Of a stretch of 64,000 nucleotides of DNA, positions 1,827 to 23,100 are shown piece after piece. The notes under the pieces were generated by a model that worked only from the letters and a program-made list of their open reading frames with translations, made no database searches and had not been told where the DNA came from. The position numbers and the translations under genes are program-made. Source of the DNA: Rhodothermia bacterium (GTDB taxonomy: Bacteria; Bacteroidota; Rhodothermia; Balneolales; Balneolaceae); NCBI GenBank assembly GCA_030427885.1, contig JAUICM010000003.1, positions 186,001 through 250,000 on the forward strand, written 5' to 3'. Each line of letters starts with the position of its first letter. The first letter of the stretch is position 1.

Positions 1827-3380
1827 TCAGAAATGATATCTCAAGGTTAGATATGAATGTACATTATGAAGTACAGTGTCGTCATCGAAAAGATAGTTAT
1901 CCCGATTTGCGTATGAAGAACTTATGGTATAGGAGATCTTTGCGAAAGAACCCGAAAATTTAAGCCCTACCTGATGTTCTATATCCTGAGGTGTTGCCTC
2001 TGTCGGATCTGTAAAGTGAGAATAGAAGTAATCATCGTTGTAGCGTGAACGTTGATATTCGATCATAAGCTGATAAATATCCCAACCGTATGATATTGTG
2101 ATCATATCGCCCTGACTTCCCGGCCCTATCGAAGCCCCGATAACCTGGCCATTATTTGTATAACCCTGTTTATTGATATAGTGAGTATACAAACTCCCCG
2201 GATTAGAAATATTCGTCTCCCAGGTTGCCAATTCACTATGCTCAATAGTAACCAACATATATCTCTTCTTGCTCATCTCGAACTTCTTATTCATGCCAAT
2301 CATATAACCTGCATTAGTTTCCGGCTGTTCTAACAACTGGACTATTCCTCCGGCATAATCACCTCGAAATAGTTCCAGATAAAAAGATAGGTCCTTTGCA
2401 CTGGTTTCCCACTTCATACTTCCGGAAATAATCTGATCGTAGATATCATTTACAAAGGATCCATCTGGTTGATTTCTTCTCTTATCATCAAAAAATCCTT
2501 TAAACAAAACCACACTGCCTGTTTTAAACGCATTACTCAAATACCTGTTTTGAGCATAAAACACTCTATTAAATCCAACTGATAGCCCTTCAAAAAAGCT
2601 AGGTTGATAACCCAAACTAAGACCTGTAAAATATCGCCAGTCATCATCAGGATCATTGTTGAAATAATCAGACTCCCGGAGTAACCCCCAAAAAATATTG
2701 ACCTCAAAATCACCGACCTTTGATTTTAGCGGCTTTGAAGTGCCAATTCTAAGGTGTGGGAATCCAGGAGCATTAGTACTCATTATTATCGGGTTATACA
2801 ATGCTGGACCCCATCTCATGTTCTGGGAGGAAAGAGCCACCTCGAATCTATTCAGATTCATATTTAACTCACTTTGCCCCAGAGAGAAAATATATAGTGG
2901 GTCATCCCCATATCGCGAAACCAGATCTATGCCTGTTGTATAAGGATTCTGATATTCCGGTCTCGTATTTAGATTACCTCCTGTATAGAACGCTCTGTTT
3001 TCAGAGTAATGAACGATTGGATTTATTACATAAGTAAGTCGACCAATCGTACCTGAAAATCCAAACCCAAATGTTGTATTCAAGCCCCTGCCTCCCCAGG
3101 CCGGACCATCATTTATACTTTTGGCGTATCGGGTATTATAAAGCGTATTAAGGTATATGGGAAGTACATTCAATGCTCCCTTCACGCTATCCCTGCAAGC
3201 TATGGAAGGAAAGAAATTGATATTCTCAGCGTAGCAAGTCCCATTATAATTAGTTGCCAGATCCGTTTGATCATATATGATTGTCTGGGCTTTTGGATGA
3301 TTGGTAAGAAAACACCCGAGAAATAATACCAACAGAGTAACTTTAGACCCTTTAATTGTATTTACTCGCAAAAAGTGCAT
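1827..3380 (-). CDS. Wzi-like capsule assembly outer-membrane protein, copy 2
   Basis: The 517 residues begin with a membrane-anchor/signal segment and continue as a beta-rich protein ending in aromatic YLTLRYHF, typical of an outer-membrane barrel. The central tract NDGPAWGGRGLN followed by GFGFSG and YVINPIVHYSENRAFY matches the pattern of Wzi-type capsule assembly proteins, which bind surface polysaccharide at the outer membrane. It is a close paralogue of the gene directly upstream; stop and start overlap by one base (TGATG). Its place at the end of a glycosyltransferase-nucleotidyltransferase-Stealth run fits a surface glycan role. The family call is by eye. Confidence 0.72.
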   Translation of the reverse strand: MHFLRVNTIKGSKVTLLVLFLGCFLTNHPKAQTIIYDQTDLATNYNGTCYAENINFFPSIACRDSVKGALNVLPIYLNTLYNTRYAKSINDGPAWGGRGLNTTFGFGFSGTIGRLTYVINPIVHYSENRAFYTGGNLNTRPEYQNPYTTGIDLVSRYGDDPLYIFSLGQSELNMNLNRFEVALSSQNMRWGPALYNPIIMSTNAPGFPHLRIGTSKPLKSKVGDFEVNIFWGLLRESDYFNNDPDDDWRYFTGLSLGYQPSFFEGLSVGFNRVFYAQNRYLSNAFKTGSVVLFKGFFDDKRRNQPDGSFVNDIYDQIISGSMKWETSAKDLSFYLELFRGDYAGGIVQLLEQPETNAGYMIGMNKKFEMSKKRYMLVTIEHSELATWETNISNPGSLYTHYINKQGYTNNGQVIGASIGPGSQGDMITISYGWDIYQLMIEYQRSRYNDDYFYSHFTDPTEATPQDIEHQVGLKFSGSFAKISYTISSSYANRDNYLFDDDTVLHNVHSYLTLRYHF

Positions 3381-4924
3381 CAGAAATGATATCTCAATGT
3401 AATATACGAATGGACATTTTGGAAAATAGTATCATCATCAAAAAGATAGTTATCCCTGTGTGCATAGCTTGAACTGATCGTGTATTCAATATTCGAAAAC
3501 CAACCTGAGTATTTCAACCCAACCTGGTGTTCAATATCCTGAGGTGTAGGGCCACTTCTGTCAGTAAATGTAACATAAAAGTAATCGTCATTATATCTGG
3601 CCCTTTGGTACTCCAACATCAGAAAGTTCTTCTTCCAGAAATAGGTAAGGGTAGCCATATCACCCTGGCTTCCCGGCCCAATAAATGCCCCTAACACCTG
3701 CCCATAATTTGTGTATCCTTGTTTATTTATGCTATGGGTATAAACCGTAGGAGCAAACTGGTAACTTGTTTCCCATGTAGCGAGCTCATTATGTTCATAA
3801 GTGAACACCATTGACCTCTCTTTCTTCATTTTAAACTTCTTGTAAATACCATACACATAACCGGCGTTTGCTTCTGGCTGCTCTAATAAGAGCACTATCC
3901 CACTGGCAAAATCGCCCCTGAATATTTCCATATAAATCCGAAAGTCATCTTTCTCATTTTTCCACTGCAGAGTTCCTGAAATTATTTGGTCATAAATGTC
4001 ATTGGTTACTCTTCCTGCTGCATTCAGCTTTCTGGTTTCATCAAAGAAGCCTTTTGTAAATAATACTGTTCCGCTTTTAAAAATATTAGTTACATATCTG
4101 TTTTGGGCGTGAAATACTCTGTTAACTCCAATTGAAAAACCGTCCCAGAAACTTGGTGCATAACCAAGACTCATCCCAGTGAAATATCTCCAATTATCAT
4201 CGGGATCTTCATTGAAATAATCAGATTCACGAAGCCCCCCCCAAAACACATTGATCTCAAAATCACCAATTTTTGAGCGCAGTGGTCTTGTAGTTCCTAT
4301 CCTGAAATGTGGGATCCCAGGGGCATTGGTGCTCATGATCACCGGATTATATAAAGCAGGGCCCCAACGCATATTTTGGGTAGAAAGTGAGAACTCAACC
4401 CTATCCAGTTCGAACTTTATTTCACTTTGTCCCGGAGCAATTACAAAATATGGCTCGTCTCCATATCTGGATACCAGATCTATCCTATCTCTGTAATATG
4501 GGTACTGATATTCAGGGCTCGAGGTCAGATCACCACCGGTATAAAAAGCTTTGTTTTCTGAGTAATGAATGATCGGATTGATCACATAGCTAAACCTTCC
4601 AACTCTGCCCGAGAATCCAAACCCTAAAGTGGTATTGAATCCTCTTCCTCCCCAGGCCGGACCATCATTCAGGCTTTTAGCGTACCGTGTGTTATATAAG
4701 TTGTTCGAGTATACCGGAAGGAGATTAAATGTACCTTTTATGCTATCTGAACATGCTATTGAGGGAAAGAAGTTGATATTCTCATCATAGCATCCACTTT
4801 GGTAATTCTTGAAAATATCCGTCTGATCATAAATTATAGTCTGCGCCTGAATTGACCGCGTGATCAGGATAAATACGATCAGTTGAAAAACAACTCTTAG
4901 GTTAAATGTTTTACTCTCGGACAT
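3380..4924 (-). CDS. Wzi-like capsule assembly outer-membrane protein, copy 1
   Basis: This 514-residue protein has an N-terminal signal segment (VVFQLIVFILITRSIQAQ, cleavage expected after AQA/AQ) and then a beta-barrel sequence almost colinear with the next gene. Shared blocks include TIIYDQTD, NINFFPSIAC, NDGPAWGGRG, SALYN-type MRWGPALYNP, MSTNAPG, FWGGLRESDYFN and the end TLRYHF. Two cysteines in the first 60 mature residues are conserved in both copies and could form a disulfide. It is inferred to hold or organise a surface polysaccharide. The 74-base gap to the Stealth gene upstream may carry its own signal or simply be an operon spacer. Confidence 0.72.
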   Translation of the reverse strand: MSESKTFNLRVVFQLIVFILITRSIQAQTIIYDQTDIFKNYQSGCYDENINFFPSIACSDSIKGTFNLLPVYSNNLYNTRYAKSLNDGPAWGGRGFNTTLGFGFSGRVGRFSYVINPIIHYSENKAFYTGGDLTSSPEYQYPYYRDRIDLVSRYGDEPYFVIAPGQSEIKFELDRVEFSLSTQNMRWGPALYNPVIMSTNAPGIPHFRIGTTRPLRSKIGDFEINVFWGGLRESDYFNEDPDDNWRYFTGMSLGYAPSFWDGFSIGVNRVFHAQNRYVTNIFKSGTVLFTKGFFDETRKLNAAGRVTNDIYDQIISGTLQWKNEKDDFRIYMEIFRGDFASGIVLLLEQPEANAGYVYGIYKKFKMKKERSMVFTYEHNELATWETSYQFAPTVYTHSINKQGYTNYGQVLGAFIGPGSQGDMATLTYFWKKNFLMLEYQRARYNDDYFYVTFTDRSGPTPQDIEHQVGLKYSGWFSNIEYTISSSYAHRDNYLFDDDTIFQNVHSYITLRYHF

Positions 4925-4998: not shown

Positions 4999-5892
4999 TT
5001 AAGTAGTTTCAAAGCCAGAAGGCTCGGGATATTTATCTTCCAAAAACTTTTTGATCAGCTTAACTACCTCTGAATCAGGATGATCGCCCAGGTCATCATT
5101 CATGCAATAGTAATCGGGACTCCATTCTTGCATAGCCTGAACAAATTTTTGCTGCTTCCTGAGATTTTTTGTGATCTTATGAAATCGAAATAACCTGTTA
5201 AGCTCCCATATTTTTACTGGATCTGATTTATCTCTATGGTACTTTAGCATGTAATACCGGTACAATTTTATTGGACAGATATTACGGTCATCCCTGAACC
5301 GGCTTTTTCTTGTTTGCTCAACTTCATCCGGAAATAGTTCATATGCTTCTTTCCAAAACTTCTTATTGATCAAAGTAGGTTGATGTTCAATAATACCCAT
5401 TCCGAAGATATCCTGAAATCCATCGTAAATACGCCATCTGAGGTTTTCCCCAAATAAAGTATTAAAGATCCGATACTTCCCATTCCGATAAAATGAGTCT
5501 ATGCTGATACGATTCCCAAAAAGAAAATCATCACACAGGTAAATAAAATTTTCTGAAATTCCCGGGATCCGGTGCAGAAAACTTTCGATCACATTTGAGT
5601 TAAATGTTGGGAGGTATTCTTCAGGGATAACCTGATCATGGTGAACTATTTCCAGTTGAGGATGATCGATATTGAGCCACTCGGGAACCTGGGGACGTGC
5701 TGTGAGTACATACACCTTATTGAAGGAATTAAAATACATTTCCAGTGACCTAAAACTATACTTCAGCATATTAAAGCCATCACGATAGCGCTCCGGATTC
5801 AGGTCTTTTTTTACCTTCGCATATTTATTCAAAATTTCGATATAGTCTGGCTCTCCGCCATCCACCCAGGTATATACGATATCAAACTTCAT
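4999..5892 (-). CDS. Stealth-family sugar-phosphate (phosphotransfer) enzyme
   Basis: The four conserved regions of Stealth proteins are visible in 297 residues: CR1 at the N-terminus (FDIVYTWVDGGEPDY), CR2 (RSLEMYFNSFNKVYVLTARP, then LPTFNSNVIESFLHRIPG and FIYLCDDFLFG), CR3 (QPTLINKKFWKEAYELFP) and a shorter C-terminal block. Known Stealth enzymes transfer hexose-1-phosphate from a nucleotide sugar to a glycan acceptor, with the nucleotide monophosphate leaving. The start codon directly abuts the stop codon of the nucleotidyltransferase gene, which suggests that enzyme makes its donor. An aminoethylphosphonate donor is a possibility here; the usual hexose-phosphate donor is the conservative reading. 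Confidence 0.82.
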   Translation of the reverse strand: MKFDIVYTWVDGGEPDYIEILNKYAKVKKDLNPERYRDGFNMLKYSFRSLEMYFNSFNKVYVLTARPQVPEWLNIDHPQLEIVHHDQVIPEEYLPTFNSNVIESFLHRIPGISENFIYLCDDFLFGNRISIDSFYRNGKYRIFNTLFGENLRWRIYDGFQDIFGMGIIEHQPTLINKKFWKEAYELFPDEVEQTRKSRFRDDRNICPIKLYRYYMLKYHRDKSDPVKIWELNRLFRFHKITKNLRKQQKFVQAMQEWSPDYYCMNDDLGDHPDSEVVKLIKKFLEDKYPEPSGFETT

Positions 5893-6627
5893 CTAATTAG
5901 TACCCTCTTCACTAATTGCTGGAAGCACTTTACTCATGGCATATTCAAGATGTCTCTCGTTATCTATCTCACACCAATTCATATCCTCAAAATGTTCAAT
6001 AAATACCGGCTCTGAAGTTTTTGAATACTCCGCAATCACGGTTTCATAATCTTTACTTAAATCATTGCCCCCATCTTCAACAAACCTTTTATACCGTTGG
6101 ATAAAACCTTCCTTCAGTGCCCATATCCCCGTCATTACCCCTTCCGGACTGCTTTGACCCCTCAACTGTTTTGTCAACCGGGTGAGTACACCTGAATCTG
6201 ACTGGAAGTATACATTATCGTCCAGATCCAGAGGAGCTGAGGTAAGTATCTTGTTCTTTGAACCGCCTTCAAGTCTTGATAGCGCTGCCGGATCATACAA
6301 AATGTCCGACTCCAACAAATAAAACGGCGCTTTTACCCGATCATTGAAAATCAGCAACGTATAGATGCTGGCGTGAACATCATATAAAGGGTTTTCCACG
6401 ATCTCAACTTCATGGTATTTCTGTTCCAGATAACTAAAACTTTCGATCATATGCCCACAGCCAATGAATACTTTGTTTACTCCGGCACCGATCAAAGCCT
6501 TAATAGAGTATTCAATAATTGGCACTCCATTAAGTGGCGTAAGTGGCTTGGGGAATGAATCTCCTGTAACACTTCTTAATCTTGTGCCTTTACCTGCTGC
6601 TAATATAACCGCCGTTTTAATGCTCAT
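5893..6627 (-). CDS. LicC/PntC-like nucleotidyltransferase (candidate CTP:aminoethylphosphonate cytidylyltransferase)
   Basis: The N-terminal pyrophosphorylase motif AVILAAGKGTRLR (residues 6-18) with downstream FPKPLTPLNGVPIIEYSI defines a Rossmann-type NTP transferase of 244 residues. The size and the sequence (ENPLYDVHASIYTLLI, LLESDILYD) resemble phosphocholine/AEP cytidylyltransferases such as LicC and PntC rather than the longer GlmU or RmlA enzymes. PntC enzymes are known to make CMP-AEP in phosphonate clusters. With PEP mutase, decarboxylase and AEP transaminase nearby, CMP-AEP is the favoured product. Inositol phosphate or a sugar phosphate remains possible. It overlaps the upstream glycosyltransferase by 4 bases (ATGA). 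Confidence 0.75.
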   Translation of the reverse strand: MSIKTAVILAAGKGTRLRSVTGDSFPKPLTPLNGVPIIEYSIKALIGAGVNKVFIGCGHMIESFSYLEQKYHEVEIVENPLYDVHASIYTLLIFNDRVKAPFYLLESDILYDPAALSRLEGGSKNKILTSAPLDLDDNVYFQSDSGVLTRLTKQLRGQSSPEGVMTGIWALKEGFIQRYKRFVEDGGNDLSKDYETVIAEYSKTSEPVFIEHFEDMNWCEIDNERHLEYAMSKVLPAISEEGTN

Positions 6628-7763
6628 TGTTTTCTAAGGTACACCTGTTCAATTTGTTTGGTGATATTTTTCCAGTCGTGCTTCTCTGCAATCTCAAATC
6701 CTTTCCGAATCAGGTGATCTGTACTCCGGGGATCAGTCATGTGCTTCTCTATGATCTTGTATAAACCATCTTTGTCGCCCGGTGTTGGGAAATTTTCAAT
6801 TCCATATTCCCGGCCAAGATTCAAATATCCTGAATTTCCATACCCAACCACTTTAACACCCATGGCCATACCCTCAAGCAACACAATCCCGAAACTTTCA
6901 CCATATAGAGAAGGCGCTACCAGTAAACTCGATTGCCCCAGATACTCTGACTTCTCCTCATCGCTGGTATTCGGGTAAAATGAGATATCCTCTAATGAAT
7001 GATCAACTACATACTTTTTTGCCATCCCCATCAGAGGGCCATTCCCTAACACTTTCAGTTCGATCTTTCGGTTAGTATGATTCTGCTTAAGATTTTTATA
7101 GATCTCAAGAATGTCTTTAAGCCCTTTTCGCTCTTCAAAGCGCCCGATAAATATCAGCCTGAAGACATTCTCTTTTTCTGAAGAATCAGATCTTTCAACT
7201 GTTGCATCAATACCATTCGGGATGATCCTGAAGTTATCCGGGCTGTTCTCATCGTTCATTCCCATTGCGGCAGATTGTGTCTTCGATACAGAAATGATCT
7301 CATCGATCTTTGGAAAATAATAGCGAACACCCAGTTTCATTAAATTTGAGCCAATATATTTTCCGATTCCGAAGTCAGGAGGCGTATCATGAAAGGTGGC
7401 TACTTTTTTTACGCTTTTCGGAGCCATATTCAATATCTGAGTAGGCATGAACGGGTTCCAGATCGTATGAAAATGGATCACATCCGGATTGAAATCCTCC
7501 ATAGTCTTTCTGAATATTTTTCTCTCATCTTTATCCATCCGGGTAATATCTATGGAAGTACCCCATATCCCAATTCTTTTTGAATCAGTTACATAATTAA
7601 CCTCACAATCAAACTTTCTTCCAAAGCCTGATTTCTTTAAGCTTGGCGCAACTACCATCACCCGGTGATTTTTCTTAACCAGCTGATTACTTAAATGTGT
7701 AATATGGGTTTGAACTCCTCCGGGGATCGATAAATCGTAAGGACAAACCTGAATGATGTTCAT
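6624..7763 (-). CDS. GT4-family glycosyltransferase, PimA-like
   Basis: It is a retaining GT-B glycosyltransferase of 379 residues. The N-terminal VCPYDLSIPGGVQTHI closely follows the start of phosphatidylinositol mannosyltransferase PimA and relatives, including the glycine-rich loop. The C-terminal half has the donor-site EX7E block (GESFGIVLLEGMAMG). It lacks membrane helices, as usual for a cytosolic enzyme acting at the membrane face. It leads a minus-strand run with the nucleotidyltransferase, Stealth and Wzi-like genes. Only 20 bases separate its start from the divergent PLD-like gene. The acceptor could be a lipid or a glycan; sequence alone does not decide. Confidence 0.88.
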   Translation of the reverse strand: MNIIQVCPYDLSIPGGVQTHITHLSNQLVKKNHRVMVVAPSLKKSGFGRKFDCEVNYVTDSKRIGIWGTSIDITRMDKDERKIFRKTMEDFNPDVIHFHTIWNPFMPTQILNMAPKSVKKVATFHDTPPDFGIGKYIGSNLMKLGVRYYFPKIDEIISVSKTQSAAMGMNDENSPDNFRIIPNGIDATVERSDSSEKENVFRLIFIGRFEERKGLKDILEIYKNLKQNHTNRKIELKVLGNGPLMGMAKKYVVDHSLEDISFYPNTSDEEKSEYLGQSSLLVAPSLYGESFGIVLLEGMAMGVKVVGYGNSGYLNLGREYGIENFPTPGDKDGLYKIIEKHMTDPRSTDHLIRKGFEIAEKHDWKNITKQIEQVYLRKQ

Positions 7764-7783: not shown

Positions 7784-8776
7784 ATGTCTGAGAATTCTAC
7801 TTTTGATAGCACCACAATTTTTGCGGATAGCGGAAGTTTTTTCGAACAACTCTCGATCGATGTTCAAAATGCACGTAATTCCGTTGCAATTCAGTGCATG
7901 AGTTTTGAAGCCGACCAGGTTGGGTGCAAACTTATCGAATTGCTCGAAAGTAAACCAAACATTGAACGTACTTTATTGATCGATAGTTATTCGCGTTTTG
8001 TAGTGAATGATACTTTTCTGGTAAGTCCTTGGGGCCTGTTTAATAAAAACGGAGCGTTAAAAGAGCGGCTGGCTCTCAAGCCTCTTCTCAAAAAAGCATC
8101 TGATTCTGGTGTACGGATCAGGTTCACCAATCCGATGGGATGGTTCTTGCGAAAATACCCGGCAAGAAATCATAAGAAACTGGTTCTGATCGATGACGAT
8201 ATTTCATATCTGGGCGGGATGAACTTTACGGAGCATAATTTCAAGTGGTCAGATCTTATGTTCCGCCACCAAGACAGCGCCACAAATTCTGCACTGAACA
8301 AATCTTTCCATTCAGATCTGGATGGGTCTCCCACTGATCCGGTCATAGATATTGATCCCCGCAAAAGGCTTTATATCCTGAACGGAAGAAAAACGAAACC
8401 TGCATTTCAGAAGATACTCTCGGCCATTAAAAAAGCTAAAAAGGTAGTCGCCATCTCTCCTTATATTTCTTATCCTGTGCTGGATGCAATTTCAAAGATT
8501 CCGGATAATACCGTGATTCTGCCAAAGCGGAATAATAAAGGCTATGTCAGTTTTCTACATTCCATAAAGAGGTATAACAATATTAATTACTTGTATGCAG
8601 GCGGAGAGATGGTTCACATGAAATTAATTATCCTGGATGATGAAACCGTTTTATACGGCTCTAGCAATTTTGACACCATCAGTTATTTATTTGAGCAGGA
8701 ACTAATTTTGCAAAATTCGGACCCGGAGTTGGTTGGTAAATTGAATCAGGTTGCAACAAACTTAATAAGCCAGTAA
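7784..8776 (+). CDS. Phospholipase D-superfamily protein (cardiolipin synthase-like)
   Basis: Two complete HKD motifs are present: HKKLVLID at about residue 130, followed by GGMNFTEHN, and HMKLIILD at about residue 278, followed by GSSNFD. Two motifs in one 330-residue chain are enough for an active site in this superfamily. There is no obvious membrane anchor, unlike classical cardiolipin synthases. The gene is 8 bases upstream of a CDP-alcohol phosphatidyltransferase, so a role in phospholipid or phosphonolipid head-group exchange is plausible. Whether it hydrolyses or transfers cannot be told from sequence. Confidence 0.87.
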   Translation: MSENSTFDSTTIFADSGSFFEQLSIDVQNARNSVAIQCMSFEADQVGCKLIELLESKPNIERTLLIDSYSRFVVNDTFLVSPWGLFNKNGALKERLALKPLLKKASDSGVRIRFTNPMGWFLRKYPARNHKKLVLIDDDISYLGGMNFTEHNFKWSDLMFRHQDSATNSALNKSFHSDLDGSPTDPVIDIDPRKRLYILNGRKTKPAFQKILSAIKKAKKVVAISPYISYPVLDAISKIPDNTVILPKRNNKGYVSFLHSIKRYNNINYLYAGGEMVHMKLIILDDETVLYGSSNFDTISYLFEQELILQNSDPELVGKLNQVATNLISQ

Positions 8777-8784
8777 TCAAGCAG

Positions 8785-9738
8785 ATGTTTTTTTCCGGTT
8801 TTTTTGATGATTTCTCAGACTCTTTCAAAAACAGATCTGCGGAAGAAAAATACGACCTGGTCTTCAGCCGTCCCGGAGGCTACATCCTGGCTAAAATTTT
8901 GGGAGGCGGACTAAAGCTTTCCCCCAATGCGATCTCGCTTTTGGGAATGTTCATAGGTATGGTTGGCGGTGCAATGCTTTTCCGTCAGGATTCACTGCTC
9001 TACACCGGAATAGCTGGCTTTTTGATCACTCTGGCAGGCGTACTGGATAGTGCAGACGGACAGGCTGCTCGTTTGTATAACCGGCAGTCACAAATGGGGC
9101 GTTATTACGATGCCATCATCGATAATGTTGTTTTTATCAGCTGCTACATCGGGGCAATATTGTACTTTGTTGACACTTACACTCTTCTGGGATGTTTAGC
9201 CCTTGGTGCTGTTTCCGGAGCTGTTCATAGCATCAAAACCTGCATTTATGAATACTATAAAGGTGAATTCATCTTTTTCTGTGGCGGAACTGATAATCAA
9301 CGAAATGAAGATGCTGATTACTATCGGGAGCACTTTGTACGCAATACATTATTCGAAAAGTTTGTGTACATCGTTTTAGTCGATTATGTAAAAAAACAGC
9401 ATCGATTCAAGTTCCGAAGCGATGAGGTCACCAAACAATTTGAACAAGCCAAAGATAAGTATGGCAGTGACTTTGAACAGCTTTTTCTGAGCGAAACACG
9501 AGGAGCACTTAGCTGGTGGGCATGGGTTTCCGGGTCGAATGTTATGAGAAACGGAATTGTGATCTCATCCCTCTTCGGCCATTTTGATTACTTCGCCTTC
9601 CTGAATATTGCATCTTACGCCTTGTTTCTCCTGGCAGGCAAGGTTCAGCAACGCGCCGACCAGCGAGTCCTTGATCAGGTTAACAAGTGGGACCTTACTC
9701 AGTCTCCGAACGAAATGACTCAACTACAAGAGAAATAA
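8785..9738 (+). CDS. CDP-alcohol phosphatidyltransferase family membrane enzyme
   Basis: The family signature DG-x2-AR-x8-G-x3-D-x3-D is intact: it starts at Asp91 (DGQAARLYNRQSQMG, then RYYDAIID). Hydrophobic helices flank the motif on both sides. An unusual hydrophilic stretch of roughly 80 residues (about 165-245, from the RNEDADYY region on) interrupts the helices before the last membrane segments. The family joins an alcohol to a CMP- or CDP-activated partner at the membrane. In this cluster the partner could be CMP-aminoethylphosphonate plus diacylglycerol, giving a phosphonolipid, or CDP-diacylglycerol plus an alcohol. The 3' end overlaps the convergent MMPL gene by 44 bases. Confidence 0.9.
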   Translation: MFFSGFFDDFSDSFKNRSAEEKYDLVFSRPGGYILAKILGGGLKLSPNAISLLGMFIGMVGGAMLFRQDSLLYTGIAGFLITLAGVLDSADGQAARLYNRQSQMGRYYDAIIDNVVFISCYIGAILYFVDTYTLLGCLALGAVSGAVHSIKTCIYEYYKGEFIFFCGGTDNQRNEDADYYREHFVRNTLFEKFVYIVLVDYVKKQHRFKFRSDEVTKQFEQAKDKYGSDFEQLFLSETRGALSWWAWVSGSNVMRNGIVISSLFGHFDYFAFLNIASYALFLLAGKVQQRADQRVLDQVNKWDLTQSPNEMTQLQEK

Positions 9739-12103
9739 GAAAGGTAGACAGGAGCGTCCCGGATATTCCTGCAATTGCCAGGTCCCCAATCGACTCCATT
9801 CCCGGGTGATCGATAAAGAGTAAGCCCATGAAACCCAGGATGGTAGTTACTGAACACGCAGAAAGAACCGGAAACTTATCCTTCAGAAAATGAGGAAGAA
9901 ATACTTTGCGGTAATTTTTCAAAGAGTCTACTAAATGGATCCCGTTATCCGCCCCAACACCAATTATGATCGGAAAAACAATCACATTGTACAGATTGAT
10001 GTCGAATCGAAAGATCAGTTTCAGTCCCAGTAGCATCATAAATGTGAGTAGCAGTGGAGCAACAGCTATCAAGGTATCTTTGAAGGAGCGGTAATACACC
10101 AGCAACAGCACTACAATAGTGAGCATTGGTGTCAGAAACAGGTAGGTCGATTCATTGATCAGCAATTCCAGAATACTTGAGGCAATGATCGAAGTACTAG
10201 CAGCATAATATTCCCTTCCTGAATCCAGTATCATGGTACCTGAACTTTTACGGAACATGATGGATGTCTCGCCATTGGATAAACTCATTTTAGGATAGAT
10301 GATTACCATCGGTGCTATCGAACCATCCTGAAAGAAAAACCTGTTTCTGATATATTTTGGCAGATTTTCCACTGTGGGAGGAACCGTCGCAAGGGCAATG
10401 TCAATAAATTCCCGGGCCTCATCACCTGCACTTTCCAGGTAGTCCTTGTTTCTGGTTATCAGGCCCAAAATTGAGTCGATTTTCTCCTTCTTTGTCTCAA
10501 ATTCTTTTTCATTGGCAGGATATCTTGCTGAAAACGACTCCACCCTTTCTATATCAGTATAGGAGTTGTCCAGACCATTGCGAATGTGATCGAAGAGCTC
10601 TTTCGATTCTTCAATTGTGTCTGTGATGTAAAAAGAAGGCTCATGATAATCGGCCCCGGTATTGACCTCTCCTGAAAGATCCCGAAATTCACTTGGTTTA
10701 GATTCCGGCTCCAGATCCGAAAAGCTAAAATTGAAACTCAGGTGGGATGATCCAAAAAAAGCGAAGCCTCCAATCACAATTAAGATACCCGGCAGGAGCA
10801 TTCTGTTGAGCGACCTGTTAGCAGAAACTTTATCCGCAAAACTACTGCTAATTGCTTCATCTTCCTGTTCATCATCAGCTTGCTTTCCCAATGATGGCGA
10901 GACCAGTAAAAACAAATAAGTAGAAATCAGATTCACAATGATGTTAATGAAAAAGATCATCCCGAAATGACGGAATCCATCAAAATCGGCGAATATGAGA
11001 CTCATGATCGCAAGCCCGGTAGTGAGACAACTTAAGATGATGGGTTTAGTCGAGGAAAAGTAGGAGCTGACAACACCTTTTAGCCCCGATGTATCGAGTA
11101 CTCCTTTTTTGTTGATAGAATATACATGGAGGATGTAATCAAGATTGATCCCAAAAAGTATACTGAATATGATCCCCGTAAATACATTGATCTCATCAAA
11201 CAGAAAAGACGATATCCCAAGTGAGATCACGAACCCTGAGAACAGAATAAAAAACACGATGATCAGGTCTGAAATTATATAAAACGGTTTATATCCTGTT
11301 CCTCTGTTCACATATAACATGTACCCGATCAGAAACAGAAACAGACTCAGAACTCCAATTATGAGAGCCTTTGAAACGGAATACTGAATATCGTTGATCT
11401 TATCATACTGGCTGACGTAGGAGCCTCCCCAGAAAAAATCAAGATGAGGATATTGTTGTTCCAGCTCTCCGGCCTTTTCAAGCAAAATATTATACGCCCC
11501 TTCAACTTTGTTGTAATCACTCTTTACAAAGTCAGGTATGAAGCTAACCCGGATCACAGTACTGTCTTCATTGATTGAATATCGCCTTGAGTTGGACACT
11601 TCCTCCAGCAACACTGAACTCTCAGCAGCTATTTCAAGCTCATTTTCCCCATTGCTGGTATCTTCATCCATTTCTACATAAAATGGATTTTCCTCCATCT
11701 TCTTTTGATCTATGTACTCTTTCAGATCTTCAAAAGTGGCATCTAACTCATCCATTGTCATCAGATACAAAGCTGAATACCGGATATCATACAGATCGTT
11801 CTCAAGTTCTGCTGCCCTGAAGATCTTTGCCCCCTGATCCTTCAGCTCAAGTATATCAACAGTAATCGCTTTTGCTTTAGTGACCAGGTAATCTCCATCG
11901 TCCGATCGTATGATGAGATCGAATCCACCCTCACTGTTGTTCAACCTTGATAGCTCCCGATAGGTTGAGAGGTGTACGTTTTCGGTTGGTAATAAGGCTA
12001 TCAGCTCTCCGTTAAATTCAAGGTTCATACTTCTGTTTAGCGCATAAGCGAACAGAGCACAATAGATCAGGATAAATACAATTAACAGGTTCCTGGGCTT
12101 CAT
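9695..12103 (-). CDS. MMPL/RND-family exporter, probable lipid transporter
   Basis: The 802-residue chain has the internal duplication typical of MMPL/HpnN proteins. There is a first transmembrane helix at residues 5-25, a large periplasmic domain to about 230, and a helix bundle with FTGIIFSILFGINLDYILHV. A seventh helix near 435, a second periplasmic domain and a final bundle with VIIGVGADNGIHLVDSL follow. The GxxxDY/GxDN elements in helix 4 and 10 regions match proton-relay positions of the family. Family members export lipids and hydrophobic molecules. Its start overlaps the AEP transaminase stop by 4 bases, so its cargo is probably the phosphonate-containing lipid made by the operon. Confidence 0.88.
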   Translation of the reverse strand: MKPRNLLIVFILIYCALFAYALNRSMNLEFNGELIALLPTENVHLSTYRELSRLNNSEGGFDLIIRSDDGDYLVTKAKAITVDILELKDQGAKIFRAAELENDLYDIRYSALYLMTMDELDATFEDLKEYIDQKKMEENPFYVEMDEDTSNGENELEIAAESSVLLEEVSNSRRYSINEDSTVIRVSFIPDFVKSDYNKVEGAYNILLEKAGELEQQYPHLDFFWGGSYVSQYDKINDIQYSVSKALIIGVLSLFLFLIGYMLYVNRGTGYKPFYIISDLIIVFFILFSGFVISLGISSFLFDEINVFTGIIFSILFGINLDYILHVYSINKKGVLDTSGLKGVVSSYFSSTKPIILSCLTTGLAIMSLIFADFDGFRHFGMIFFINIIVNLISTYLFLLVSPSLGKQADDEQEDEAISSSFADKVSANRSLNRMLLPGILIVIGGFAFFGSSHLSFNFSFSDLEPESKPSEFRDLSGEVNTGADYHEPSFYITDTIEESKELFDHIRNGLDNSYTDIERVESFSARYPANEKEFETKKEKIDSILGLITRNKDYLESAGDEAREFIDIALATVPPTVENLPKYIRNRFFFQDGSIAPMVIIYPKMSLSNGETSIMFRKSSGTMILDSGREYYAASTSIIASSILELLINESTYLFLTPMLTIVVLLLVYYRSFKDTLIAVAPLLLTFMMLLGLKLIFRFDINLYNVIVFPIIIGVGADNGIHLVDSLKNYRKVFLPHFLKDKFPVLSACSVTTILGFMGLLFIDHPGMESIGDLAIAGISGTLLSTFLISLVVESFRSETE

Positions 12104-13191
12104 TGATTTGCTAAATACTCCCGGATTACCTCGCCAACATACTTCATATCCTCTTTATTAAGGTCACCGATAACAGCCATCCTGAAGGTTTTATTTTCCG
12201 GTATAACCCCGGGATATACAGTAATATTCCTTTCGTATAAATAGTCATGGAAGTCATCAAATCCTTTCGGTAGTTTTTCGTCCAGATTTATGGCCATCAA
12301 TATTTTTGATTGTTGCTCCATAGGAAGAAAGAAAGTAAACCCGAGCTCTTTCATCAAATCATACAGCATCTGCCAGTTTTCCTGATACCTTTCCCATCTT
12401 GCCTGAACCGTTTCCTCTATGGTCTCCTCTATCGCCTTATGGAAAGCATAGCTGATCTGAACAGGAGGAGTGAACCGAAGCTGATTCTTCTCCTTCAAAT
12501 GATACCATTGCTTGTAAATATCAAAATAGAAGTTCCGAGTATTATCTTTTAGTTCATCCAGCTTATCTTTATGAAATACCACAAAAGCCAGACCAGCCAT
12601 TCCCTGGATACATTTATTTGATGAAGCCGCCAGATAGCTCACTTTGGTTTTCATCAGATCAATCGGATACCCTCCGTAAGAGCTCATTGCATCCACAATC
12701 AGATCAATACCCAGTTCCTCGCATAATTCAGCTGCATCTTCGAGAGGATTCATCATCCCGGTAGACGTCTCATGATGGATCATTGCCAAATGGGTAAAAT
12801 CTCCAGCAGATAACTTTTCTTTTATCAGGGTCAGATCCGGATACTCGCCGTATTTATGGACAGTATCAAAATTCAAGCCGTAAGAGTGGCATATATCAGC
12901 CATTCTGATTCCATACGCACCGTTTTTTACGATCAGAACTTTCGAATTCTTACCAATCGCAGAAGTTAACATAGCCTCAACTGCTCCGGTTCCACTGGCC
13001 GGAAACATACAGGCTTCATACTCACCTTCTCCGTTCCCGATCTTAACCAATCCTTCAACAATATCCTGCATCAGGTCTCCGAATTCATCCTCTCTGGGAC
13101 AAATATCATTTACAACCAGCGCTTTTTTTACTGAATCGGAAGTTGTACCCGGACCGGGGTTTAGTAAGATCTTTCTTTCCAGATCATTCAT
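12100..13191 (-). CDS. phnW: 2-aminoethylphosphonate:pyruvate aminotransferase-like enzyme
   Basis: A fold-type I aminotransferase of 363 residues with the PhnW-like opening (KILLNPGPGTTSDSVKKAL), the SGTGAVEAML cofactor loop and DAMSSYGG. The probable pyridoxal phosphate lysine is Lys193 in ASSNKCIQGMAG. PhnW is best known from degradation of AEP. Beside PEP mutase and phosphonopyruvate decarboxylase it should run in the synthetic direction, aminating phosphonoacetaldehyde to AEP. One base separates its start from the decarboxylase stop. Confidence 0.92.
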   Translation of the reverse strand: MNDLERKILLNPGPGTTSDSVKKALVVNDICPREDEFGDLMQDIVEGLVKIGNGEGEYEACMFPASGTGAVEAMLTSAIGKNSKVLIVKNGAYGIRMADICHSYGLNFDTVHKYGEYPDLTLIKEKLSAGDFTHLAMIHHETSTGMMNPLEDAAELCEELGIDLIVDAMSSYGGYPIDLMKTKVSYLAASSNKCIQGMAGLAFVVFHKDKLDELKDNTRNFYFDIYKQWYHLKEKNQLRFTPPVQISYAFHKAIEETIEETVQARWERYQENWQMLYDLMKELGFTFFLPMEQQSKILMAINLDEKLPKGFDDFHDYLYERNITVYPGVIPENKTFRMAVIGDLNKEDMKYVGEVIREYLANQ

Positions 13192-13192
13192 G

Positions 13193-14323
13193 TCATTCCT
13201 CTCCTTCAGATATAAATTTCATGAAGTCTTTCTTGTTGTCTTTGGGAGCTATTGTCGGCCTTCCCAGCTCTTTACGGGAACCTGTTTTTGTCATTATTTC
13301 CAGCAATACAGGACCTTCATGTGTTACGAATTCAGGCAGTACTTTTTCTAATTCTTCTCTTGTTGAAATACGAAAGGCATTCTTGTATCCACAGGCATCG
13401 GCTATCTTTCCAAAATCTGTCACAAATCCGGCCGTTGGCTGACCTCCAACCGATTCATGGGCACCGTTATTAATCAAAATGTGTTTAAAGTTCTTCGGTG
13501 CAAGTTCACCGATAACTGCCAGTGAACCCATGTGCATGATCATAGCCCCATCACCATCAATGCAATATACTTTTCGTCCACTTTTTTCAAGGGCTATTCC
13601 CAGAGCGATCTGTGATGCATGCCCCATACTTCCGACTGTCAGGAAATCGCGTTGATGTCCCTGATTCTTTTCAGCTCTGAGCTCAAACAACTCCCTGGAA
13701 GTCTTGCCTGTTGTAGATACTACTATGTCAGAATCCCCCAAATGAGCTGAGATCACTCTCAGAACTTCTTCTCTTTTGAGTGTGTACACTGATGATGCCT
13801 CTTCGGATTTCAGCACGTATTCCTCAAAAGTATCCGGTGGTACCAGCAAGGCCGAAGGCCCTGAAGTTTTTTGTATGGTTTGAATTACTTCCAAAACCTG
13901 CTCTCTGGCTTTATCTTCCTCCCCTGATAAAATTATATAAGGAAGTTCCAGAGCCTGAAGCTGAGCCTCCATGGTTCGGCCCTGTTTTACATGCTGTGGC
14001 TCGTCTTTTTTACCAGGCTGACCCCTCCATCCGATCATAAGCAGCATAGGAATAGAATACACCTCGTTATCGACAAGTGAAGTAAGCGGATTTACTGTAT
14101 TTCCAAAACCTGAGTTTTGCATATACACCATCGGTATTTTTCCAGTTGCCAGATGATATCCAGCTGCAATACCAATGGCCGCGCCTTCATTTGCTGCTAT
14201 GATCCTGCTACCCTGATCGAAAGCATAGGAGCAATAGTATTTCAACAAAGAGTCAGGAACACCAAGGCTAAAATCGACTCCCTGATCTTTTAGCAGTTCA
14301 TATAAGAATGCTGGTTTTAACAT
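13193..14323 (-). CDS. ppd: Phosphonopyruvate decarboxylase
   Basis: This 376-residue ThDP enzyme is the normal length for Ppd. It carries the catalytic Glu region in the N-terminal domain (AANEGAAIGIAAGYHLATG, MQNSGFGNTVNPL) and the ThDP/Mg motif GDG near residue 257 ending in NN about 28 residues later (INNGAHESVGGQ). It decarboxylates phosphonopyruvate to phosphonoacetaldehyde, the step that pulls the unfavourable PEP mutase reaction forward. It lies 7 bases downstream of the PEP mutase gene. Confidence 0.94.
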   Translation of the reverse strand: MLKPAFLYELLKDQGVDFSLGVPDSLLKYYCSYAFDQGSRIIAANEGAAIGIAAGYHLATGKIPMVYMQNSGFGNTVNPLTSLVDNEVYSIPMLLMIGWRGQPGKKDEPQHVKQGRTMEAQLQALELPYIILSGEEDKAREQVLEVIQTIQKTSGPSALLVPPDTFEEYVLKSEEASSVYTLKREEVLRVISAHLGDSDIVVSTTGKTSRELFELRAEKNQGHQRDFLTVGSMGHASQIALGIALEKSGRKVYCIDGDGAMIMHMGSLAVIGELAPKNFKHILINNGAHESVGGQPTAGFVTDFGKIADACGYKNAFRISTREELEKVLPEFVTHEGPVLLEIMTKTGSRKELGRPTIAPKDNKKDFMKFISEGEE

Positions 14324-14330
14324 GTTCTCC

Positions 14331-15623
14331 TTAATTAGGCAGGATCTCCAGGATCTCCTTGATGGACATGCAGTATTTATCTGCTTCCAGCGATCGCTTG
14401 TTCTCCAGGATCGTCTCCGCTGTTTTTTTCATCGCCGGAAAAGCACTTCTTAGGAGATGGTTCGCATAGATCACCACGCTGAAGCCAGCTTCATACAGTT
14501 CATCTTCAGTAAACTGGTTGTATGAAGAAGGAACAGATATCACCGGGACCTTATACTCAAATTTCTTGTATTCCTTCATAAACTCCATGATCTCAGAACC
14601 ATCTTTATGCCGGCTGTGGATCATGATCCCATCGGCTCCTGCTTCGATATATGCTTTTGCCCTTTTCAGAGCTTCTTCCATTCCAGCATTTGCGATCAGG
14701 CTTTCAATCCGGGCAATGATCATAAAGTCAGAAGTTAGCTGTGCTTTCTTACCGGATGATATCTTCTCACAAAACACATCAATATTTTCCAGTTCCTGCT
14801 TTACATTCGTACCAAACAGTGAATTTCTTTTTAGTCCAGATTTATCTTCAATGATCATTGCGGAAACACCCAGGCGCTCCATGTTTTTGACCATCATTGT
14901 AAAATGCTCGGTCAAACCACCAGTATCGCCATCCAGTATGATCGGTTTTGTGGTTACTTCGAGGATGTCGTTTATAGTCTGAATCCTGGATGTTCTGTCT
15001 ACATACTCAGTATCTGGTTTTCCTTTAGCTGTTGAGTCGGTTAAGCTACTCACCCACAGGGCGTCAAATTCTCTTAATTCCCCTTCGGCTTCCACTTTGG
15101 TCTCTTCCACGATCAATCCGGAAATCCCGTTATGTGCTTCCAAAACCCGTACGATGGGTTTCGCTGCCAGCAAACGACGAAGCATTCTCCTCCTAATATC
15201 CGGAGTAGTACCTACTTCCCGCATGGCATTTCTCAAGCCTGTGGATGAGATCCCGTCTGTGTAATCCGGTTCAACGAGTTGCCCATCCCATTCCTTCAAA
15301 ATCCGGATCACTTTATCACGAATATGCTTCTGAGGCCCAACCTGCCAATCAGTTCCATGAACCACATAATCTGGCCTCAATGCTCTCAGATTCTTTTCAT
15401 AGTCCAGTTCTTCCTGCAAGATCACTTTTGATACGCCCTTAATATTTTCCAGAATTCGTTTACGTTCCTCATACTCCAAAAATGGCATCCGGCTATATTT
15501 GGTTACTGCTTCATCAGATAGTAACCCTACCGTGACCTCTCCCAATTCCCGGGCTTTCTCGATTATATTAATATGACCGTGATGTATGAGATCTGTACCC
15601 ATACCCACATATACTTTTTTCAT
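14331..15623 (-). CDS. pepM: PEP mutase with N-terminal cytidylyltransferase-like domain
   Basis: Two domains are fused in 430 residues. The first (about 1-140) is a nucleotidyltransferase of the GCT/TagD type with HHGH at residues 14-17 and ISSTG near residue 125, a variant of the RTxGISTT motif. The second (about 155-430) is PEP mutase with the diagnostic EDK-x5-NS motif at residues 259-268 (EDKSGLKRNS) and LDGDTGG. PEP mutase forms the carbon-phosphorus bond of phosphonopyruvate from PEP. The N-terminal domain suggests a phosphonic acid, perhaps a product of this pathway, is nucleotidylated; this part is inference. It is the first gene of the operon running to the MMPL exporter. Confidence 0.95.
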   Translation of the reverse strand: MKKVYVGMGTDLIHHGHINIIEKARELGEVTVGLLSDEAVTKYSRMPFLEYEERKRILENIKGVSKVILQEELDYEKNLRALRPDYVVHGTDWQVGPQKHIRDKVIRILKEWDGQLVEPDYTDGISSTGLRNAMREVGTTPDIRRRMLRRLLAAKPIVRVLEAHNGISGLIVEETKVEAEGELREFDALWVSSLTDSTAKGKPDTEYVDRTSRIQTINDILEVTTKPIILDGDTGGLTEHFTMMVKNMERLGVSAMIIEDKSGLKRNSLFGTNVKQELENIDVFCEKISSGKKAQLTSDFMIIARIESLIANAGMEEALKRAKAYIEAGADGIMIHSRHKDGSEIMEFMKEYKKFEYKVPVISVPSSYNQFTEDELYEAGFSVVIYANHLLRSAFPAMKKTAETILENKRSLEADKYCMSIKEILEILPN

Positions 15624-19145: not shown

Positions 19146-20129
19146 CTAAAAGCTTATCGCGAAGCTGAATCTTAATGTGTTGTATATCGGATCGATCACA
19201 TAAGCAAAATCTGACTGTATCCTGAGTTTATTTCGTATCTCAATATCCAGGCCCGTTCCCAGTGTATATTTATCATCATCAAGTTGATTAACCCCTTGTT
19301 CAGTACCCGCCCTGAGCATTAGTATTTTAACCAGTCTGCCTTCTAAACCTATTCTCACCCAGTTGGTTCTTTCTCCGGTTAAGGCCGGTTGAAAATCTCC
19401 TACTGCTATCAGATTATCTGAAACTTTAAACGATGAACCTACGATCAATTCCATCGGCATACCCTCTTCGTAGGATCCTTTCGGGTTATAGCCACTTCCT
19501 CTTGCTTTACTGTTCCAGTTGATGGGTGCATATATATCGCGGAGCATTACTCCAAAATTCATCTTTCTTGTGGGGTGAAACATGAGGCCAAGATCTACAC
19601 CAAATCCATTTGCATCGCCATATACCTGCTGATTAAATCCTGCATCGATCTCACTCTCATCAAAAACGATATAGTCTTCTCTTCGAAGGGTGTTGTTGCC
19701 AAACGCCGCATTTCTGTATTTGACTCCCAAACCAATGCTGATGAATTTCAGCCGGATGCCATAGGCCGCATGAACAGAAAGCTCATTCATCATCTCATCT
19801 CCTGAAGACAATACCGAGAATCCCACTGACTGCCCTTTGAAAGGAATGGGCACCAATGCAGCAAAGTAGTTATACTTTATGATCCCGAACTGATCTGTTT
19901 GAGAAAAACTGACTTTATACTCATTCATTTGCGACAACCCAGCAGGGTTGAGATAGCTGGAATTTTCATCATCTGCAAGGCCTACATAGGCAAAACCCAT
20001 ACCTACCGGACGAGTACCGAAACCGATATCGACAAATGATCCGGGTATGCCCGACAATTCCTGAGCATAGGTAACCTCAGTAGTAACCCCCAATATCAAA
20101 AACAATAATATTGCAGTTATTCTTTTCAT
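19146..20129 (-). CDS. PorV/PorQ-family outer-membrane protein
   Basis: A 327-residue barrel with signal peptide (ITAILLFLILGVTTEVTYAQ). The N-terminal motif IGFGTRPVGMGFAYVGLADD followed by YLNPAGLSQM is characteristic of PorV/PorQ proteins. PorV of the type IX secretion system is a shuttle that receives secreted cargo at the outer membrane. The start overlaps the stop of the giant repeat protein by 4 bases (ATGA), and two bases separate it from the next barrel gene. Its pairing with a large secreted protein suggests a dedicated partner, which is inference. Confidence 0.85.
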   Translation of the reverse strand: MKRITAILLFLILGVTTEVTYAQELSGIPGSFVDIGFGTRPVGMGFAYVGLADDENSSYLNPAGLSQMNEYKVSFSQTDQFGIIKYNYFAALVPIPFKGQSVGFSVLSSGDEMMNELSVHAAYGIRLKFISIGLGVKYRNAAFGNNTLRREDYIVFDESEIDAGFNQQVYGDANGFGVDLGLMFHPTRKMNFGVMLRDIYAPINWNSKARGSGYNPKGSYEEGMPMELIVGSSFKVSDNLIAVGDFQPALTGERTNWVRIGLEGRLVKILMLRAGTEQGVNQLDDDKYTLGTGLDIEIRNKLRIQSDFAYVIDPIYNTLRFSFAISF

Positions 20130-23100
20130 TTCACTAACACCACCTGAAGTAATTTAACCACTTCGTCCTGCTGGTCTTTTGCTTTTATCTGTATGATATA
20201 GCGGCCATTTCGAGCCATATTGCCTGCATCCGTTAAACCATCCCATGTAATCTCTTTGTTACTCGAAGAGGAGCCATATCTGCCCGGTTGCTGAAGATCA
20301 TCGTCCAGAAGGGTACGAACCAGTTCCCCCCTCATATTAAAGATCCGGACATTTACTCTTGCCGGAGGAAACGCAGTATCCAGCCAGTAGCCGATTTTTA
20401 CGGGTGCAATTTCCGGGGAGAATGGACTAGGTAACACTGCTGCATATTTAATTCCTAACGGCTCGTTTTCAGCCATTACTGCGAACTGACCCAGCTGCTC
20501 AATATTTACCGCTCCTGCACTGTTTGCAGCAAAAGATTTTGCGTTACTCTCCTCGAGTATCTCCCATTGAAGGGTAGTGAAATTAAATCGTCCAATTTTC
20601 TTTTCACCGGAATTAAGGCTCAAAGATGAATCTTGTGGAAGAATTAAACTGGCTGCTTTTTTAAGATCACTTCCTGAAAAAGACAACACATAGATCTTAT
20701 CTGAAACAGTGTAACTGGTATTTGTACCCTGTGCGAACACAAATTTCTTCGTTTCCGGAGGAGTGGTTTCCCCAAGTGATAATTGCGAAGGAATATCAAC
20801 GGAGCCTTCTTCAAAATTTAATTCCAGACCGTTACCATCCGATAGTATATAACTTGCTTCCGGTTCGATCTGCGCGGTTAATTCAACAAGATCCGAAACG
20901 CCTGACTTATTTGATATCGGATCCGACACCTTAACCCGGAAGGATCCTATCATCAGATCATTCTCTGGCTGGAAAAGACCTCTGTCATCAATACTTCCTG
21001 AAGCTGATGGTATGACCTCCCATTTCAGGCTTTCTCCCAGAATGACCGAACTACCCGAAGTATCCACAGCGCTATAGCTAAAAAGATGATCCTCGGAATT
21101 CGCGATCTGCTTAGCCGGGACGCTCACACTTATCTCTTTTATGGGGATGTTGGTAACTTCAATATCAAGATTTTCACTGATCGTGGTTCCATCCAGGTTT
21201 ACCAATACCTGTAGTTTATAGAAGCCTGCTTTTTCAGCATCCAGTTTTACGGTGGTTCCATCCTGTTCATATAATCTTATTCCCGGGTTTTCAGAAAGAA
21301 CTTCCCATTCAATACTACCATCAGAAGCTGTCCCTTCGAATTCATTTTCCAATGATTTATTGATCCCATCTCTTACAAATAATTCAATGTTGTAGCTGTC
21401 ACCAACCCGGAGTGACTGGCCGTCAATTGTTGGAGTAACACGAATATTGCTTAGAATACCGCTGGCTAATGGTACAATGGAACTTTCTGAACTGACATAT
21501 ACATTGTTCCGGTTGGTATCGCTTATGGTAGCGTAGAAAGAGACTTCTTCTACTGAACCAAACTCAGGGAGGAATGCCACCAAAGTATCACCATTTGTGA
21601 CAAATGTAGTTTCGCTGTACTGACTTTCTGAAGCTTTTTTATAAAACAGGGAGCCTGATGCACCACTATTATCATAACCTGATGCATTTACCACACTAAC
21701 CTTAGTCTGTTCATCCGCCAGTATTTCCTGAACCTCCAGTTGTTTGTATGGCAGATAAACATTGCGCTCCAAAGCAGCGGTATCAGAAGGCAGCTCTATT
21801 CTTATTGTATTTTGAGGATATAAATACCCCTCTTTTGAAACACTGACAGTGTATGTTGCCTTTCTCAGATTTTCTGAGGACTGAAACTGTCCGTCAGTGC
21901 CGGTTATTTCAGATTCCGATGCACCACCGGAGATGCCAAATACAACCTCGGCGCCTTCAATCGGGCCATCACCATCTGTAACGAGAAGTTCGATTTTACC
22001 ACTCGGCAGATTTGTGAGTGGCATTGTAACTGTTTTCCCAACTTTATCTGAGCTTATTTTTGCCGTATATGTTTTGGTGAAAACACCCTCAACTATTTTA
22101 ATCTGGTAAACAGTAGTATCATTCTCACCCGTCTTTATTGGCAGATTTCGAAACTGATATTTACCCGAAGAGTTAGTAACCGCTTCATATGTTCCTGTTG
22201 ACAAGGCGGTAACTGAAATTCCTGAAACTCCTTCTCCGCTTAGTTTTACATTTCCGGCAATGGTCACAGCAGCGGGTGATAATGTCAGTTTATCTGCATC
22301 AAGGCTTTGACCTGCATTAACGGTAACCTCTACTGTATCTGGTGTGAATCCCTGCTTATTTGCTATTAAAGAATAGGTTCCTGAAGCCACACTGGCAAAG
22401 CTGTATTTACCGGATTTATTGGTCTCAGCTTCAACAGATTGCCCTGTTGATACAAAAACGGCTGTAACTGTAGCCCCCTGCAAAGCAGACTCAGAATCTC
22501 CTGAAACTGAATTTACCACTCCGTTTATTCCTGAGCTGTTAGCTTTAAGAAGAAATGAGGTTGAAAGTGAGTCCCCCGATTGTAAAGTTATATCCTTACT
22601 GGTTGGCTCTGCGGTATAGCCATCCTTTACTGGTCTGACTATATAATATGTGGATGCCTGGATTTTGCTGAAACGTGCAATTCCTGATGAGCCGGTTTTC
22701 GTTGAAAGTATTACAGTTGTATCTGCTGATATTATTGTCACATCTACCCCGGATACCCCTTTCTGAGCTTCATCTTTAACCAGCACATCCAAAGTAGCTA
22801 TATTGGCAACTGCGTTGAAATTCGTTGTTTTCGAATCTTCACTTCCCAATGTTATCGCAGATGAAATGGCAGGAGAAAAGCTATAGCCCTGTTTTTTAGG
22901 TTGCACTTTATAGTTCCCCGAACCCAGAAAGCTAAAGGTATAATCTCCACTGTTATCCGTTTTTGTAAGTTCGATGATCTCCTGTGTATCAGCATCAATA
23001 AGTGAAAGTGTTGCACCACTGATAGAGGTACTTCCTGAAATACTGGATTTCTTAACTATTACTTCAAGGTCGTCTTTTAGTACCACCTGGCTGGCCCCAA

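Follow-up and report, generated by a model that had tools for sequence, protein, structure and literature searches.

The closest described systems are the Pnt clusters, in which, as presented by Rice et al. 2019 (PMC6697681), PEP mutase (PepM), a decarboxylase, an aminotransferase and the cytidylyltransferase PntC are encoded together and aminoethylphosphonate (AEP) is activated by nucleotidyl transfer. The steps after PntC are termed enigmatic in that account, and the transfer of activated AEP to bacterial lipids or glycans is the open step. LicD-like phosphotransferases are named there in pnt neighbourhoods and are the suggested transferase; the main text mentions neither Stealth proteins nor CDP-alcohol phosphatidyltransferases. 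LicC/LicD phosphocholine tailoring is similar in that a cytidylyl-activated small head group is moved to a surface molecule. Two further enzyme groups are relevant: Stealth phosphotransferases, represented by human GNPTAB (7SJ2, 9BGF) and Mycobacterium tuberculosis CpsY (8J2N), and CDP-alcohol phosphotransferases (CDPAT), represented by AF2299 (4O6M) and an inositol-phosphate cytidylyltransferase/CDP-inositol transferase fusion (4MND).

The locus reported here lies in a stretch of 64,000 nt (the window) of genome G000. It has the core of the Pnt clusters, but joins PntC with a CDPAT, a transporter and a Stealth protein. The run of nine genes starts with a PF01467 cytidylyltransferase-like domain fused to PepM (14331-15623, minus strand; TIGR02320 410.4 bits, cut-off 319.55), whose translation contains EDKSGLKRNS and thus satisfies EDKXXXXXNS, the PEP mutase motif as given in PMC6697681. 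Phosphonopyruvate decarboxylase (Ppd; 13193-14323, minus) and 2-aminoethylphosphonate aminotransferase (PhnW/AepZ; 12100-13191, minus) follow, both above cut-off (TIGR03297 and TIGR03301, respectively), and then an HpnN/MMPL-like RND transporter of 802 aa (9695-12103, minus), which scored 104.6 bits with TIGR03480, below the cut-off of 751.85, and had no Pfam match. CDPAT (8785-9738, 317 aa) and a phospholipase D/cardiolipin-synthase-like protein (PLD; 7784-8776, 330 aa) are on the plus strand. The run ends on the minus strand with a GT4 glycosyltransferase (6624-7763, 379 aa), a nucleotidyltransferase (NT; 5893-6627, 244 aa) that overlaps GT4 by 4 bases, and a short, cassette-type Stealth-family phosphotransferase (4999-5892, 297 aa). 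NT was above the Pfam cut-offs for NTP_transf_3 and NTP_transferase, and Stealth for all four regions CR1-CR4. Beyond Stealth are two Wzi-like genes, one encoding a capsule-assembly outer-membrane protein (3380-4924, minus) and the other its tandem relative (1827-3380, minus). The tandem pair spans 1827-4924 of the window, and a single copy was seen next to each of the cassettes of L040, L041 and L042.

The sequence-only reading had described a PntC-like NT separated by zero bases from Stealth, and both statements hold. At the junction AATTAG is directly followed by ATGAAG, the NT stop codon touching the Stealth start codon; both genes are on the minus strand, and the whole AEP pathway is within the same cassette as Stealth. 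The top solved-structure match of NT was Treponema denticola PntC (Tde-PntC, 6pd1/6pd2; E 4.5e-33, residues 3-240), which was also the sole full-length one; LicC matched residues 5-108 only (E 1.4e-14). NT residues R16, K27, E106, K153 and E195 correspond to R15, K25, E104, K153 and E196 of Tde-PntC and are invariant in the five cassette NTs. According to the residue data in Rice et al. 2019 (PMC6697681), these positions were either tested or located close to the amine of AEP, with Glu104 and Glu196 facing the amine, and LicC has an Asp pair where NT has this Glu pair. Among 12 NTs compared, the set R, K, E, K, E was complete in all eight linked to pepM and in none of the four from other contexts: the second Lys is Pro in the NT on contig C10 of the window genome, the first Glu is Asp in G396 and G221, and G427 has Met, Thr and Ser, with the Glu pair and Lys lost. 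From this match and these residues NT is predicted to be, almost certainly, a PntC, and therefore the cassette genes should make CMP-aminoethylphosphonate (CMP-AEP).

We examined 92 genomes of the same family, in which PEP mutase was above cut-off in 10, Stealth in 28 and both in seven. In five of the seven (G000, G003, G023, G027 and G030) the two genes are 8.4-9.1 kb apart, and in the remaining two (G044, G064) they are on separate contigs. In the window genome itself a single Stealth_CR2 match and a single PEP mutase were found, at a distance of 8.4 kb. All nine cassette genes are present in the five cassettes, and Wzi homologues also flank three of the four outside the window. An ABC exporter-like gene and extra glycosyltransferases were seen beside other cassettes and are missing next to that of the window. 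Identity between the window and the other cassettes is 61-64% for Stealth, 59-63% for NT, 52-56% for GT4 and 50-54% for CDPAT. Stealth alone was rejected as the finding, the real unit being the nine-gene cassette.

The survey covered the window's own phylum and plasmids. Of the 394 genomes sampled from the phylum, nine had PEP mutase (E<=1e-60), 23 had Stealth (E<=1e-10) and four had both, always within 10 kb. Chance would give about 0.5 genomes with both; as the genomes are related, the P of 9e-4 cannot be taken at face value. The closeness of Stealth and pepM exceeds chance. Cassette Stealths scored 591-631 bits with their own model A1 (window 598), and every other Stealth at most 121. Among 244 genomes of the class the cassette type was found in these five only, the sixth match (G063) having 112.6 bits. 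In 79 genomes of another family, pepM was in five, Stealth in four and both in none; plasmid records gave 48 Stealth and 37 PepM matches (E<=1e-50), with no record shared. A wider scan of genome contigs with narrow peptide queries gave one locus, a near copy of that of G003, in a Balneolaceae MAG. The association of Stealth with phosphonate genes is a single cassette lineage within one family and not a recurring pairing.

The probable product of the cassette is a lipid or glycolipid of the cell surface that carries an AEP head group. We infer the substrates and the order of the steps as follows. PepM, phosphonopyruvate decarboxylase and the aminotransferase would produce AEP, NT (PntC) would convert it to CMP-AEP, and CDPAT would move AEP from CMP-AEP onto a lipid with release of CMP. 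GT4 and Stealth may elaborate the glycan part, where Stealth would most likely transfer a sugar-1-phosphate from a UDP-sugar, and the HpnN/MMPL-like transporter and Wzi-like proteins may bring the product to the surface or keep it there. The best explanation, with a probability of roughly one half, is that CDPAT transfers AEP to a lipid and that Stealth acts on the glycan of the same glycolipid.

CDPAT is favoured because it is in all five cassettes, stands beside AEP genes where Stealth is absent, and is retained in an inositol variant. Its motif D..DG..AR........G...D...D is intact in the window, and D88, D91, G92, A95, R96, G105, D109 and D113 are invariant in the six sequences aligned. The nearest solved relatives are AF2299 and the 4MND fusion; both share the CDP-alcohol motif and have a partner NT of the same broad superfamily, but here NT and CDPAT are separate genes and NT carries the AEP signature. 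In G365 and G580, which belong to a different family, the order is CDPAT-PepM-Ppd-(PntC+AEPT), and neither Stealth nor LicD was found in the fetched stretches. Also outside the window's family, PepM-Ppd-AEPT of G566 and G567 is adjoined by none of CDPAT, LicD and Stealth. G427, of the same order as the window genome, has GT4-PLD-CDPAT-NT-MMPL with myo-inositol-phosphate synthase (TIGR03450, E 3.7e-120) replacing the AEP genes; no PEP mutase was listed for it in the phylum sample (E<=1e-60). The CDPAT of G427 is 41.5% identical to the cassette CDPAT, and its NT, lacking the PntC Glu pair and Lys (M, S, T), resembles inositol-1-phosphate cytidylyltransferase (E 3e-31). G427 is a head-group swap on one cassette scaffold: head-group supply and NT pocket change together, and CDPAT stays. 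In G396 and G221, CDPAT is flanked by a PLP enzyme and NT. CDPAT thus accompanies an NT regardless of head group, and the pocket of that NT tracks the head group, as would be expected of a CDPAT that uses the NT product. Together with the four-gene relatives from another family and the inositol variant, the cassette marks out CDPAT as the candidate for the lipid step, with LicD and Stealth as rivals.

Some points stand against this explanation. The CDPAT family (A4) is broad, with matches in 81 of the 394 sampled genomes, and some relatives are in inositol-3-phosphate synthase operons of Bacteroides/Prevotella, where they may use CDP-diacylglycerol instead. The PF01467 domain fused to PepM could also make CMP-AEP, freeing NT for another substrate. 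Furthermore, Stealth is in five of five AEP cassettes and was not found near the inositol-variant CDPAT, which would also be expected if Stealth used CMP-AEP.

Several loci were observed beside these comparisons. The G427 locus (L117, G427:C20, 3222-15485) contains Wzi, ABC, GT25-like (by eye), GT4, PLD, CDPAT, NT, inositol-phosphate synthase and MMPL genes. A congener has a decayed AEP cassette (L116, G024:C11, 9290-15914) with a shortened GT4, PLD, CDPAT, MMPL and a shortened AEP aminotransferase, and no PepM, decarboxylase, NT or Stealth was found at the locus. On a Streptomyces plasmid (L080, 3686-10978), a CDP-alcohol phosphatidyltransferase gene has two Stealth genes at a distance of about 3 kb. 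A general pairing of Stealth with CDPAT was dropped: no CDP-alcohol gene was annotated near Stealth in five other plasmid stretches viewed with flanks of 9 kb, nor in one viewed with flanks of 8 kb.

LicD could instead be the phosphonyl transferase of the cassette and decorate a glycan, the step being lost in the window genome or supplied in trans by the LicD on contig C10. In four of the five cassettes NT and Stealth have an opposite-strand gene of the LicD family between them, G125, outside the window's family, combines PepM-Ppd-PntC-AEPT with LicD (no Stealth was found in that stretch), and the LicD role suggested for other pnt clusters points the same way. The window cassette, however, has no LicD, and CDPAT clusters manage without it. 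The only LicD of the window genome, that of C10, shares 41-43% identity with the LicDs of the cassettes, but it has its own fused NT-aminotransferase-like partner, suggesting another donor. We therefore regard the LicD explanation as unlikely. On a loss of LicD in the window or a gain in the others the trees conflict: the PepM tree joins the window and G003, and the Ppd tree places the window outside the other four. The C10 locus (L051, G000:C10, 7846-10235) encodes a fusion of an NT with a class I/II aminotransferase-like domain, followed by LicD; in the NT the Glu pair is kept and the second Lys is not. This two-gene unit is perhaps a phosphoethanolamine-like tailoring system. The other pepM clusters of the family (L043, L044, L045 and L046) have the PepM fusion, the decarboxylase and a reductase-like gene replacing the aminotransferase, with LicD next in L045; inspection by eye and the analogy with L071 suggest the hydroxyethylphosphonate type.

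The sequence-only reading had further proposed that Stealth itself is the AEP transferase, with a glycan hydroxyl attacking the phosphonyl phosphorus of CMP-AEP and CMP leaving. In its favour, the cassette Stealths form a subfamily of their own (591-631 against at most 121 bits) and are co-localised with pepM in five of five cases, Stealth abuts PntC directly in a window cassette that has no LicD, and the 20 kb covered of the inositol variant G427 showed no Stealth. However, the abutment, the chief argument of that reading and correct as a zero gap, is a peculiarity of the window genome, for LicD intervenes in the other four cassettes. The neighbourhood survey gave a positive result within the family, but in the 79 other-family genomes and the plasmid records no overlap of pepM and Stealth was found. 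CDPAT and LicD are rival candidates in the same cassettes; AEP-CDPAT and AEP-LicD clusters occur without Stealth, and in Stealth-less lineages it is CDPAT that tracks NT and head group. Thus the gap, the PntC-like NT, the AEP pathway and a cassette-specific Stealth stand, and Stealth as a user of CMP-AEP is not supported. The open-licence literature, in the portion covered, yielded no report of Stealth using a phosphonate.

The Stealth protein itself is matched with the known family. Its AF2 model (pLDDT 86.9, pTM 0.88) had Z scores of 32.6 to 7sj2 (GNPTAB) and 26.7 to 8j2n (CpsY), the next, unrelated match having 11.2. Stealth R35, D121, D122, H170, R200 and N265, in numbering counted from printed alignments, correspond to human R322, D407, D408, H956, R986 and N1151 and are kept in all five cassette proteins. 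Residues 28-36, including R35, have low model confidence, which agrees with human PTase, whose corresponding segment is ordered only when the donor is bound, as reported in PMC11418123. The protein thus shares the four CR regions, the fold and, except one, the catalytic residues with GNPTAB and CpsY, but lies within a phosphonate cassette. E103, kept in five of five, equals human E389, the Glu that binds GlcNAc O3/O4; it favours a sugar donor without proving it, and nothing in the predicted donor pocket points away from nucleotide sugars. Human PTase His959, near GlcNAc, is Ile or Thr in cassette Stealths and His in 31 of 37 other rows, which could fit a changed donor; this specificity reading was dropped because CpsY, active with UDP-GlcNAc in the assays described in PMC10668966, has Val there. 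The loop Thr64-Gln68 (Arg66 in the cassette, mostly Asn elsewhere) was likewise dropped as a site of cytosine recognition, the loop not being among the uridine-near residues given in PMC11418123. That Stealth transfers AEP is unlikely, and it is equally improbable that the cassette Stealths are a phosphonyltransferase subfamily with a sugar-free cytidine donor which in the window replaces the LicD of its relatives. A Stealth that used CMP-AEP would add a new class of donor to a family whose known reaction to date is hexose-1-phosphate transfer.

The phosphotransfer residues of Stealth are intact save for the near-invariant, donor-binding NDD Asn, which is Cys120 (codon TGT) in the window copy. 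This position equals human N406 and CpsY N322, and is Asn in the four other cassette Stealths and in 36 of 37 comparison rows; two genes are counted twice among these rows, both genes of L006 recurring in L031, and rows shorter than 200 aa and four loci repeating cassette Stealths are left out. In the mutant data shown in PMC11418123, Asn406Ala abolishes human PTase, and in those of PMC10668966, CpsY E305A, N322A and D324A cost 200-500 fold. C120 would weaken a claim of normal Stealth activity, not of family membership. The window Stealth might thus be impaired or changed in substrate, in line with the Asn replacement and with the LicD, ABC and extra glycosyltransferase genes missing beside it. 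We hold this to be improbable, since the frame is intact and the 61-64% identity is like that of the neighbouring genes, which gives no sign of relaxed constraint.

It is very improbable that the product of NT is a nucleotide sugar used by Stealth or GT4 and unrelated to AEP, for although sugar nucleotidyltransferase models gave weak matches (all far under cut-offs) and a second cytidylyltransferase-like domain exists on the PepM fusion, the only full-length solved match is Tde-PntC and the residue set separates the pepM-linked NTs from the four others. Elsewhere in the window, positions 20126-27268 form one open frame of 2380 aa.
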